NCBI RefSeq assembly: GCF_015207425.1 | Contig: NZ_JADEWZ010000005.1 | Location: forward strand, 124,001-188,000 | DNA length: 64,000 nt | Source: Lusitaniella coriacea LEGE 07157 | GTDB lineage: Bacteria > Cyanobacteriota > Cyanobacteriia > Cyanobacteriales > Spirulinaceae | Direction of reading: 5' to 3' | In this document: positions 8,382 to 56,615 of the stretch, in pieces | How the letters are laid out: each line of letters begins with the position of its first letter | How positions within the stretch are numbered: the stretch's first letter is position 1 | The notes under the pieces: generated by a model | Told to the model about the DNA's origin: nothing | Databases searched by the model: none | The model's input: the letters and a program-made list of their open reading frames with translations, nothing else | Program-made: the position numbers and the translations under genes

Positions 8382-8760
8382 AACAATCGCGATCGCCCTT
8401 CAATTTCTCCCCATCTCCGCATTTCCCTCTCATATCAAATCCTCTTAATTGCTCACTGCAAAAACTTCTCCGTGTCTCCTCGGTCGGCTTGCGTCCTCAG
8501 CGCGAGGCACTCTGAGGTTCCCTATCGGACGGCTGAAATGCCGGAAAAGGTTCCGGCATCGCGTCCTCCAGATTGTGCAATCGTGCTGCAAGAGGAGGTG
8601 GCGACATTTGACGGGGCGTACAGGGTTTCGAGGTTTCCTCGAAACCAGCCCCTCAGTTTTCCTCAAATGCTTGTGACCGCCGTAGGAACCTCAGAGGCGT
8701 TCCGACCGCTCTCCGAGTCACCGTGTCAGTCCTCGCCAAGGGCATTCAACCGATTTCACA
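8382..8760. other. Non-coding region rich in perfect hairpins
   Basis: I see no convincing gene here. Two perfect stem-loops are present: 8538-8559 (9 bp stem, 4 nt loop) and 8624-8646 (10 bp stem, 3 nt loop). A longer inverted pair, CTCTGAGGTTCC near 8510-8522 and GGAACCTCAGAG near 8685-8697, brackets both. It may be a structured RNA or a palindromic mobile sequence. Confidence 0.55.
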
Positions 8761-52485: not shown

Positions 52486-53754
52486 TCAACGCCTCAATTG
52501 ACTCTCAATTCCCTTGCATCCTCCTGGAATGGTACTTCGGGTTCTCTCACCGCCCCAAGCACAGAGATAGTCTCGTTGTTTTTGGTCGAGGCGATGGACG
52601 TTAGTGAAATCGGCATTTTCTACCACTGCTCCGGTGTAGGCTCCTGTTTGATAATTGGGGGGGTGGAGGCGACTGCGGGGGCTAGCGGTTTCGGGGTTGC
52701 CATAAAATAGGCGGGTGCTTTTCATGTCTGCGCCGTTCAAAGTCGCTTCGTACAACACCGTGCGCGCTAAGTTTGCTTTGACCAAATCGCAGCGATTGAG
52801 ATTGGCGCGAACCATATTGGCGTTGCTCAAATCCGCCCAACGCAAGTCTGTTCCTTCGAGATTTGCCCCAGCTAACATGACTCCGAGATCGATGACGCGC
52901 AATCCGTAATTGCGATCTTCCTCGTAACCGCCGGAACCGTCGAGAATGGGTCGTCCCAATTGTCCGTCTCGCTTGAGGGGGGTCAGGAGTTTGGATTGGG
53001 AGAGGAAGCGCAGGATTTTTGCTTTTCCTCCGGCATCGACACTGCTTAGAATGGCGGCGGTGCGTCCTTCGGCAAAGGCACGTTCTTGAGGCCAATCTTC
53101 GAGGAGTCCTTCATCGCTGAGAGCGAGATCGGAGATACCTTGGAAGTAGGTGTCGATGGTTTGTTGTTGGGTGATCGTGTTTTGGCGGATGGTTAAGTCT
53201 TTGGAGATGACGTATTGTTCCCAGGCGACGTAAACGGCGAGAACGGCGATCATGATTTGACCTAATGCACCAAACCAGTCTGCCCAAGACCCGAATTCAT
53301 CCCATTTGATCTGGGTGAGCCATTCGTTGACGCGCCGATAGACCCCGATGAATTTGAATAAGCCCGCGAGCGCGATTCCTAATGTAATTAAACCAAATAA
53401 GGTTTGGCGTTCGTTGGGGGTGAGGAATCGGGCAACCCATTCGCGGGTGGCGGGGAGGATTAAACGCAGGGAAATTAGGATTGCGACAATTGAGCCGGAA
53501 AGTCCGATCCAGAGGTTATTCAGCAGTAGTCCAATTGCCATAATCGCGATCGCGATTATGACAATCCAAGATCGGGAAACCTCATTCGCATCAAAATTGA
53601 CCGTTCTAACAGCACTTACCAAACGATTATCTGGCAAAACCTCCCGTTGGGGAACTTCTACCAACACTTTGCCATCGCTTGCTATTTCCGTCTCCGGCTG
53701 AGGGTTCTGCCCGTTATCGGGGTTAGATGGGGCAGGATTGGGCTGAGTGGTCAT
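52486..53754 (-). CDS. Membrane protein with C-terminal pentapeptide repeats
   Basis: 422 residues. A Pro/Asn-rich N-terminus is followed by four or so hydrophobic segments (about 62-80, 82-100, 115-140, 165-182), then a helical region (about 185-270). A pentapeptide-repeat stretch comes next (about 290-345; ANLEGTDLRWADLSNANMVR and following), then a tail with ADFTNVHRLDQ. Cyanobacteria have many such proteins; function unknown. Start ATG at 53752-53754. It lies 33 bp downstream-side of hicA on the same strand but is a separate unit. Confidence 0.85.
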   Translation of the reverse strand: MTTQPNPAPSNPDNGQNPQPETEIASDGKVLVEVPQREVLPDNRLVSAVRTVNFDANEVSRSWIVIIAIAIMAIGLLLNNLWIGLSGSIVAILISLRLILPATREWVARFLTPNERQTLFGLITLGIALAGLFKFIGVYRRVNEWLTQIKWDEFGSWADWFGALGQIMIAVLAVYVAWEQYVISKDLTIRQNTITQQQTIDTYFQGISDLALSDEGLLEDWPQERAFAEGRTAAILSSVDAGGKAKILRFLSQSKLLTPLKRDGQLGRPILDGSGGYEEDRNYGLRVIDLGVMLAGANLEGTDLRWADLSNANMVRANLNRCDLVKANLARTVLYEATLNGADMKSTRLFYGNPETASPRSRLHPPNYQTGAYTGAVVENADFTNVHRLDQKQRDYLCAWGGERTRSTIPGGCKGIESQLRR

Positions 53755-54524: not shown

Positions 54525-54868
54525 TGCGGCACTCCTAACCCCAAAAGTCTCTACAAAATTTTCAAGTCGGTTAAATGTCTCGGTTGAGAGAATAAACTTC
54601 AACCCCAAGCATTTCGCTTGTCCTTAAAGATGGATGAAAACTCGAATAAGTTCCCGATTCCCTAGCAATCATTCTGCTTTACCCACTATAACAACCCTAT
54701 TGTTGAAATTGGCTAAAATACGCCTTATCGATCCGGAATCGTCAATAACACGGTTGTAGATCGCCTAGAATCTGTATTTTCTCGTACAGCTTTCAAGGCA
54801 ATCGACTCTATAAAACGCAAAAACTTGTTTGGCGAAAAACATTTGTATCAATGAGAGAAGGTAGTTTA

Positions 54869-55534
54869 ATGAAAAACATCGCAAGAACGAACGTGAATTT
54901 CCCCCAGAAACTTTTGTTTGCTCCACTATTGGCATTCTCGCTTCTGTTTTACGGCTGTGGCAACAATTCAGAACAATCGACGATTAACGAATTGCCCGAA
55001 GCAACCGAAAGCCCTGAAGAGTCTCCCATTGCAACAGAAAGTCCGGCAACAGAAGAATCGCCTGCGGCTGCTTTTGAGGGAACGCCGGATATTGCAGGAG
55101 TGATTGGGACTAAGGAAGAAGGGTGGATGCCCAAAGTCTTAGCAGATAAAAATCTCAAAGAAAATATGACTCCAGAGGAGACAGGAAAAGTTATTCCTGG
55201 GGCGGAAGAAGTCTCTGAGTTTGGGTTTAGTGAAGTTCAGGTTGAAGACGTACCAGAAATACAAAAGTACGAGTTTTATTTTGAGAAAGATGAGGCAGGA
55301 AAGCCCAACAAATTGAAAAATGTCAAGTTAGTCTTTGACCCCACCCTGAACGGTAAAATAACTTACGAGGAATTAGCAAAAATTCTGGCTGTGAAGTATG
55401 GCGAGGTTAGCTCCGGAGATATTGAAAAAGAAATTGTGACTTGGGTGGGCCCGGATTTTTCGACAGCTCAATTTACCAAAGGTTTGAATGACTTTGAAGG
55501 GTATTCATTCCAAATTTCGGTTCCCGAAAAGTAA
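54869..55534 (+). CDS. Predicted lipoprotein of unknown function
   Basis: 221 residues from ATG at 54869, with AGAAGG about 10 bp upstream; an in-frame ATG at 54851 is less likely. The N-terminus has a lipobox (LLAFSLLFYGC), so it is a lipid-anchored periplasmic protein. A Glu/Ser/Pro/Thr linker (about 35-65) is followed by a globular domain. The C-terminal part (KYEFYFEKDEAGKPNKLKNV, ITYEELAKILAVKYGEV, GYSFQISVPEK) resembles no family I can name. Confidence 0.8.
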   Translation: MKNIARTNVNFPQKLLFAPLLAFSLLFYGCGNNSEQSTINELPEATESPEESPIATESPATEESPAAAFEGTPDIAGVIGTKEEGWMPKVLADKNLKENMTPEETGKVIPGAEEVSEFGFSEVQVEDVPEIQKYEFYFEKDEAGKPNKLKNVKLVFDPTLNGKITYEELAKILAVKYGEVSSGDIEKEIVTWVGPDFSTAQFTKGLNDFEGYSFQISVPEK

Positions 55535-55673
55535 GATCCCCCTTTAGCCTACGTTCAACAAATGGCGAAGGGAAGCATTCCATTTTTGTCGCCCTCATCC
55601 CCCAATCCCTTCTCCCAACGCTGAGAAAGAGCTGAGAGGGGGATCGCCAGGGGTTAAGTAAAGTTAAGTGAAT

Positions 55674-55868
55674 TTACTGGAAAAGTGTTGCATCCAGGCG
55701 ACTCGCTGCAACTTGGAACGAGGCATTGCGCCTCACGCGACGGGCGGGAACGCGGTGATAGTAACCATAACCGCAAGGTGAATAGGCGTAGTGGTGTCCC
55801 CCTTGAATTGTGGCGGTTTGTTCTGTTGTTAGTTCGGTAATGAGTTGAGAATTCGTACTGTTTTTCAT
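55674..55868 (-). CDS. Double-glycine leader peptide (bacteriocin-like precursor)
   Basis: 64 residues from ATG at 55866-55868 (the frame extends 17 codons to 55919). The first ~24 residues read STNSQLITELTTEQTATIQGG, a GG-type leader with the usual EL(T/S)xEQxxxIxGG pattern recognised by peptidase-containing ABC exporters. The ~41-residue core is His/Tyr/Gly-rich at first (HHYAYSPCGYGYYHRVPARR), with one Cys, then Arg-rich. No peptidase, exporter or modification enzyme lies beside it, so it would rely on a distant transporter. It could be a bacteriocin, a signal peptide or an unmodified secreted peptide. Confidence 0.68.
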   Translation of the reverse strand: MKNSTNSQLITELTTEQTATIQGGHHYAYSPCGYGYYHRVPARRVRRNASFQVAASRLDATLFQ

Positions 55869-55997
55869 GATTGATTGCGGTTTGTGAGCGATAGATTGCT
55901 TGTCAGAGAAGGAAAACACTCTCCTAGTTATCCCTTCCTTGTTTTCTCATCTCATCCGGATACAGCCTGTTTTCAAAGGGGTGCGCGCCCTTTGAAA

Positions 55998-56615
55998 TTA
56001 AGAGGTGTATTTCTCCCAAATCGGTAAATCTTCCGGGTAGTCAACATCACTGAGAACGGGAAGATAACCAATCTCCAAACCCAATCCTAGGGCAATCTCA
56101 ACAGTTTTTTGCAATACTTGGGACGTTCCCCAAGGCACGTTTTCAAACAAAGCGGGAATTGAGCGCTGCAATCCAATCAAATAATAGCCGCCGTCCTGCG
56201 CCTTTCCCAAAACCAACTCGTTTGCCTTAAGCTGCTTGAAAGCTTTGTCCATCAAAGTTGCAGTGAGATCGGGACAATCAATCCCAATGATCGCCACGCG
56301 CTTCATTCCTGCTGCGAATGCCCCCGCAAACGCCGCTCTCATGCGCTCTCCCAAGTCTCCGGGCGATTGGGCGCGGTACTTCCAATCCGAACCTAACCAG
56401 GCTTCCATCAACGGCTGCGACCCGCCAGAGAAGTGGACTTCTACGGTACAATTGCTGGGGATTTTCTTGGCTTGCGCGATCGCGCGCTCTGTCATTTGAC
56501 GTTGTAATTGGGCTGCACCCTCCGCCCCTAACGCCGGAATCATGCGGGTTTTGGTCTTTCCCGGTTCGGGATAGCGAGTGAAAATAATCAGGCAGTTTTG
56601 ACCGGTTTCGCTCAC
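55998..56615 (-). CDS. TIGR04282 family glycosyltransferase-like protein
   Basis: 205 residues. GT-A fold protein of the TIGR04282 family, sometimes linked to arsenosugar synthesis. Visible motifs: IIFTRYPEPGKTKTRMIPAL, LGERM near the middle, IGIDCPDLT and the metal-binding LGKAQDGGYYLIGL. Starts ATG at 56613-56615. No arsenic-related gene is adjacent, so the role is open. Confidence 0.9.
   Translation of the reverse strand: MSETGQNCLIIFTRYPEPGKTKTRMIPALGAEGAAQLQRQMTERAIAQAKKIPSNCTVEVHFSGGSQPLMEAWLGSDWKYRAQSPGDLGERMRAAFAGAFAAGMKRVAIIGIDCPDLTATLMDKAFKQLKANELVLGKAQDGGYYLIGLQRSIPALFENVPWGTSQVLQKTVEIALGLGLEIGYLPVLSDVDYPEDLPIWEKYTS

Follow-up and report, generated by a model that had tools for sequence, protein, structure and literature searches.

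The DNA analysed here, called the window, is a stretch of 64,000 nucleotides on contig C5; the draft genome to which it belongs measures 5.86 Mb. On its minus strand lies a small gene, P0001, which encodes a peptide precursor with a double-glycine (GG) leader. A frame with no Pfam match in its last 225 aa runs towards this gene from the left, with a YkuD gene further left. The features of the locus are the following:

54851-55534, plus strand, 227-aa frame running towards P0001 from the left
55566..55631, no strand assigned, dispersed intergenic repeat, 3' of P0001 and outside its frame
55674..55868, minus strand, P0001 gene, 64-aa double-glycine precursor and stop codon (translation, leader HMM)
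55677..55796, minus strand, predicted mature core of P0001, 40 residues (from the presumed cleavage site)
55797..55868, minus strand, leader of P0001, 24 residues with GG at its end (translation, leader HMM)
55917..55919, minus strand, alternative in-frame start GTG, giving 81 aa (frame reading)
55921..55925, minus strand, AGGAG, 52 nt upstream of the P0001 ATG and 1 nt upstream of the alternative GTG
55935..55937, minus strand, GAA, 17 nt downstream of TCCGGA, a spacing common to leader-gene sites
55955..55960, minus strand, TCCGGA (DIF1 motif) inside TATCCGGAT, 92 nt upstream of the P0001 ATG
55998-56615, minus strand as P0001, DUF2064 gene to the right of P0001

The translation of P0001 reads MKNSTNSQLITELTTEQTATIQGG for the leader and HHYAYSPCGYGYYHRVPARRVRRNASFQVAASRLDATLFQ for the core. 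The core is hydrophilic (GRAVY -0.63), has a charge of about +5 and contains five Tyr, three His and one Cys. A first, sequence-only reading of the locus had described a His/Tyr/Gly-rich core behind a GG leader, and the 24-residue leader followed by a basic 40-residue core with Tyr and His bears this out. Upstream of the ATG the frame continues open, with an in-frame GTG at 55919, so that the start codon is uncertain; the GG site and the core are identical from either start. None of the Pfam or NCBIfam models, CTB, NHLP, Nif11 and others included, matched the peptide at E ≤ 10.

Leader HMMs built without P0001 were used to rank the 1919 six-frame segments of the window. P0001 came first with the HMM of six own paralogues (E 3.4e-6, 24.4 bits, with 5.6 bits for the runner-up) as well as with that of 19 leaders from other genomes (E 9.9e-9, 31.9 bits, with 6.4 for the runner-up). 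With the combined leader profile it reached 32.6 bits, compared with best scores of 3.7 to 9.2 in 20 block-shuffled windows. A chance open reading frame is ruled out by this ranking, in which P0001 stands far above the next segments and the shuffled windows, and P0001 is a real double-glycine precursor. The earlier proposal that the GG leader is an exporter signal is supported by the HMM ranking, by the search with P0001 itself and by the profile matches in other genomes.

An RNA element was set aside, as an Rfam scan found no family at gathering score between positions 53000 and 58000. A repeat-derived tail was ruled out, since the dispersed repeat begins 3' of the stop codon. This repeat has ten more partial copies genome-wide, with 83-93% identity.

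Leader paralogues and exporter

With P0001 alone as query, leader matches were obtained on contig C56 (E 1.7e-5 and 7.6e-4), together with weaker ones on C71 and C56. This search is the independent one, because profile A2 was made from seven own leaders and its strong own matches arise partly by construction. Frame reading gave six other clear GG peptides with a leader of the P0001 type, four on C56 and two on C71; the latter lie at L012:8026-8208 and 8514-8669, near the contig end. A possible eighth leader gene (L021:1387-1572, here C5:43k) has a weak leader match (E 0.062) and TCCGGA at -122. An ABC transporter gene without C39 match is located about 1.1 kb from it. A leader match on C32 was ruled out, as it sits in another coding frame and contains a stop.

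The four C56 peptide genes lie directly upstream of P0008 (C56:7044-9221), whose 725-aa product is an exporter that combines C39, transmembrane and ATPase domains and has no cyclic-nucleotide domain. The C39 model PF03412 has four matches in the genome, on C15, C50, C55 and C56, and none on C5. P0008 was compared with 35 further exporters, and all 36 rows have the catalytic residues Q16, C22, H98 and D114 intact. The genome's remaining C39-like proteins, on C15, C50 and C55, have replacements at Q, C and D and a gap in the His column, and these long proteins are disfavoured as processing exporter because the catalytic residues are missing. P0008 is the sole C39-like protein of the genome in which they are intact, which leaves one plausible processing exporter, acting in trans. 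In lacking the catalytic residues, these three long ABC proteins (L063, L064 and L065) differ from HetC as described in PMC10986499.

By tblastn, the 19-kb stretch of C56 contains no further ABC gene, and the best own homologue of the HlyD protein of related cassettes is encoded on C36, unlinked (43% over 12-370). PCAT1 and ComA are peptidase-ABC exporters of other bacteria, with unrelated cargo cores. P0008 aligns to both over its full length (PDB 4ry2 and 8hf4; E 4.7e-115 and 3.8e-98).

The sequence-only reading had called the peptide an orphan and had suggested looking in the genome for more GG-leader peptides and a C39 exporter. The description holds for the neighbourhood, which has no processing gene, all C39 matches being off C5; it does not hold for the genome, with its six GG peptides, the C56 exporter and the C36 HlyD. 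The suggested search thus returned six clear peptides and one catalytically intact exporter. Homologues sharing the leader, on which that reading had made itself depend, exist among the own paralogues and elsewhere in the class.

At E ≤ 1e-4 the leader profile matched in 23 of 388 class genomes, the own genome counted. In 20 of the 22 other genomes a leader match has a P0008-like exporter on its own contig and strand, at a distance of 201-1206 bp, and homologous exporters (57-67% identity to P0008) were present in 13 of the 15 leader regions retrieved. The exceptions are G174, in which no P0008-like exporter passed the cut-off, and G360, with its leader matches on C100 and its exporter on C47. 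A second leader match in G240 lies about 0.53 Mb from the nearest exporter, assuming a circular contig. The layouts of G360 and G240 indicate that parallels for unlinked cargo exist. The exporter match in G029 spans residues 143-720 only, and several exporter frames contain a stop. Within the window's own family, the leader match was absent in 11 of 12 other genomes and weak in one.

An HlyD-like gene occurs at 8 of the 11 cassettes compared (one of the eight being checked with Pfam) and a kinase-like gene 4-10 kb away in six; further recurrent neighbours are housekeeping genes or antisense frames. Among ORFs of at least 60 aa, no recurrent modification enzyme or immunity-like gene was found at the 11 cassettes. 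In four of them (L055, L058, L060 and L067) the exporter is followed by a gene of 164-186 aa which by eye is lipoprotein-like. Gly-Ala leader variants (…VNGA, …INGA) were seen alongside the Gly-Gly ones at L054, L058, L060 and L067; the Gly-Gly pattern passes over such leaders, for example that of G379.

These cassettes bear on the reading of P0001 as a microcin- or class II-like bacteriocin, which would be exported by the same system and be active on related bacteria. A double-glycine precursor together with a C39 exporter is a typical bacteriocin arrangement, Wang 2011 (PMC3140520) classes such cyanobacterial clusters as bacteriocin clusters, and the core of P0001 is cationic. The group III described there has, as here, a short-type C39-ABC exporter, an HlyD and several GG precursors with divergent cores; unlike in that description, the parts here are scattered over C5, C36, C56 and C71, and the precursors have DIF1-like upstream elements. 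The 11 cassettes have no recurrent immunity-like or modification gene, the P0001 core is hydrophilic, and the one tested homologous system, EbfG/PteB, serves biofilm formation, so that we regard a bacteriocin as unlikely. The CTB family bacteriocin (NCBIfam NF038167) also has a cyanobacterial GG leader, and a relative in G175 reaches 12.5 bits with this model, below the cut-off of 32, whereas the window peptide gave no match to it.

The DIF1-like upstream element

In Anabaena, the promoters of hetR, patS and patX carry the DIF1 motif TCCGGA at -35 and depend on hetZ (PMC7377430). A set of 58 DIF1 promoters has a common second block at -10, and DIF1 alone is insufficient for heterocyst specificity (PMC6133370). 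In the present genome TCCGGA occurs within 200 bp upstream of seven of the eight own leader genes, P0001 included, which makes it the first of 2080 hexamers (uncorrected p 5e-9, one of the eight genes, C5:43k, being a weak leader match). In leader genes of related cassettes it was found in 6 of 18, always at -114 to -122, and ranks second after CAAGGA (uncorrected p 8e-5); these 18 upstreams come from 12 loci picked from the 55 upstreams of a wider set, in which TCCGGA occurs in six, all within the 12 chosen loci, and is absent in 49. It stands upstream of 3 of the 82 window ORFs, and it was found neither in the 160 bp upstream of the exporter gene P0008 nor upstream of the EbfG genes.

Of 14 leader-gene sites, 11 have GAA 17-18 nt past TCCGGA, that of P0001 among them, versus 9 of 110 other TCCGGA sites; the 14 sites leave out G013c and include two with one mismatch (P0003, CCCGGA, and P0007, TCCGGG), and the motif and its spacing were chosen post hoc from the same data. 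The published DIF1 design has a 17-nt spacer before the second block, and the GAA of our set, a putative counterpart of that block, follows after 17-18 nt.

As a test of P0001, a two-block weight matrix of 42 bp was equivocal, its outcome changing with the training sites. When it was trained on the six own sites, the score of P0001 was reached by 58 of the 82 ORF upstreams and by 2512 of 4000 random stretches; with six foreign sites these numbers fell to 0 and 77, and with all twelve sites to 0 and 40. The longer stretch TATCCGGAT was ruled out as a specific mark, since it has 33 matches on both strands, and most of 30 sites inspected by eye precede other genes or none. A -10 box [TG]AnnnT at fixed spacing was dropped, as it is missing in 7 of 13 sites including that of P0001.

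HetR is present in the genome (E 4.1e-77; 0 of 14 control genomes). Just upstream of hetR (from L175:1342, contig C6) lies a patX-like frame (L175:759-1046) containing RGCGR and two RGSGR, and the only TCCGGA of that locus stands 61 nt before its ATG. The upstream TCCGGA and the presence of HetR are shared with the Anabaena DIF1/DIF+ class as described in PMC7377430 and PMC6133370; unlike in that class, the genes served here encode peptides for export and not hetR, patS or patX.

Under one reading of these findings, the HetR/HetZ circuit uses P0001 as a signal between cells: DIF1-controlled genes would give rise to the released peptide, and neighbour cells would sense it. The DIF1-like element common to P0001 and the own patX-like gene agrees with it, as does the proposal in PMC10986499 of a signalling peptide as possible cargo of the peptidase exporter HetC. 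We nevertheless hold a signal to be very improbable, because the P0001 core lacks an RG[ST]GR pentapeptide, the cores diverge widely among the own paralogues, unlike a receptor-bound signal, and the exporter here is of the PteB type, without the cyclic-nucleotide domain.

With TCCGGA at -35, the transcript would start at about 55922, some 54 nt ahead of the P0001 ATG. The AGGAG would then be at the 5' extreme of the transcript, leaving the ATG without such a site; indeed, no ribosome-binding-like site was found adjoining it. The 10-mer AGGAGAGTGT is common to the upstream regions of P0001 and P0006 and is followed by ATG in P0006 and by TTT in P0001. Translation of P0001 may be weak, or the gene may be decaying.

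As a decaying or silent duplicate, P0001 would have retained its leader and upstream element while its start site and tail degraded, and would give little or no peptide. The distance of the AGGAG from the ATG and the TTT after the 10-mer fit this explanation. So does the core, which lacks the tail motif of P0002 and P0004 and has no orthologue: the search of 58 related genomes gave one leader-only match at E ≤ 0.01, and a scan of genome contigs found none. The gene also stands alone. However, its frame runs unbroken for 64 codons (81 from the GTG) and has a complete leader, both TCCGGA and its spacing to GAA are retained, and the predicted transcript would still include the stretch ahead of the ATG. 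Decay appears to us rather unlikely.

Predicted export route and peptide cargo

In Synechococcus elongatus, the catalytic cysteine of PteB is required for efficient EbfG secretion and for biofilm formation (PMC4997328). EbfG1-3 form amyloid, and EbfG4 is located at the surface and in the matrix (PMC9981879). The G088 cassette contains three exact EbfG peptides, as printed in PMC4997328, and its exporter shares 52% identity with P0008 over 10-721, which identifies P0008 as PteB-type; from its place beside ebfG4, the G088 exporter is presumably PteB itself. As in the published EbfG1-4/PteB system, a short C39-ABC exporter is preceded here by genes for several small GG peptides with Tyr-containing cores. 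Unlike in that system, the window gene is on C5, outside the exporter operon on C56, and its leader and core are different, with no VxQ[ST]V-type motif. Among the literature matches listed, there was no report joining exported GG peptides of the EbfG/PteB kind with the DIF1 promoter class.

We consider it probable that P0001 is a dispersed cargo of the PteB/EbfG type, exported in trans, co-regulated through a DIF1-like element and acting at the surface or in the matrix. This reading builds on elements present in the sequence, namely the leader, the paralogues, the catalytic residues, the linkage seen in other genomes, the promoter-like element, HetR and the patX-like gene. Transcription would be driven by the DIF1-like promoter (TCCGGA, with GAA after 17 nt) common to the leader genes, which is HetZ-dependent in Anabaena and may be under HetZ control here. 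The C56 exporter would act in trans: its C39 domain would recognise the leader of P0001 and cleave it off behind Gly-Gly, and the 40-residue cationic, aromatic core would exit via this exporter and the HlyD-type adaptor encoded on C36. By analogy with EbfG1-4, the released peptide would most likely be active at the cell surface or in the matrix. The former orphan would thereby become a testable in-trans cargo of one specific exporter.

Many cores behind this leader, in the paralogues as well as in other class genomes, are rich in Tyr, Arg, His, Gly and Cys. The statement of the sequence-only reading that the core resembles no known bacteriocin therefore stands as regards the Pfam and NCBIfam models, and has to be amended in that similar cores follow the same leader elsewhere. 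No Pfam or NCBIfam model covers the Tyr-rich cargo. This cargo tracks the exporter tree, with 3 changes versus 9.7 in shuffles (2 when the unlabelled rows are removed), relatedness explaining part of this signal; the tree was made by a quick method with 39 rows out of the exporters in 97 genomes, and seven rows have no cargo label, three of them being the long C39-like proteins. A VxQ[ST]V-type motif is present in P0002, P0004 and EbfG1-3. It occurs in 7 of 20 Tyr-type cores (shuffle expectation 0.02, the 20 cores having been picked from those displayed in leader comparisons) and in 5 of 6 EbfG-type cores (shuffle expectation 0.2). It was not found in the P0001 core.

A wider proposal, which we put forward as doubtful, is that of a dispersed regulon of small peptides rich in Tyr, Arg, His and Gly, for which one PteB-type exporter and an unlinked HlyD would act in trans and which a HetR/HetZ-type developmental circuit would switch on via DIF1-like promoters. 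These peptides would form a matrix on particular cells or at particular stages, possibly amyloid or cross-linked through tyrosine, and P0001 would contribute a short basic component to the coat. If the link is true, several cyanobacterial genera would have a secreted peptide coat under the control of a developmental circuit.

Cores of other kinds were also seen. At L105 (G374), GG peptides with cores of Gly-Arg-Gly or GQDGAAGQDG repeats lie upstream of a P0008-type exporter, and L061, L062 and L069 (G332, G257 and G240) encode short cores rich in Trp, Tyr, Arg and Cys, such as TRCFWVRVCRWVRYWYGIQWACVWAVRCY.
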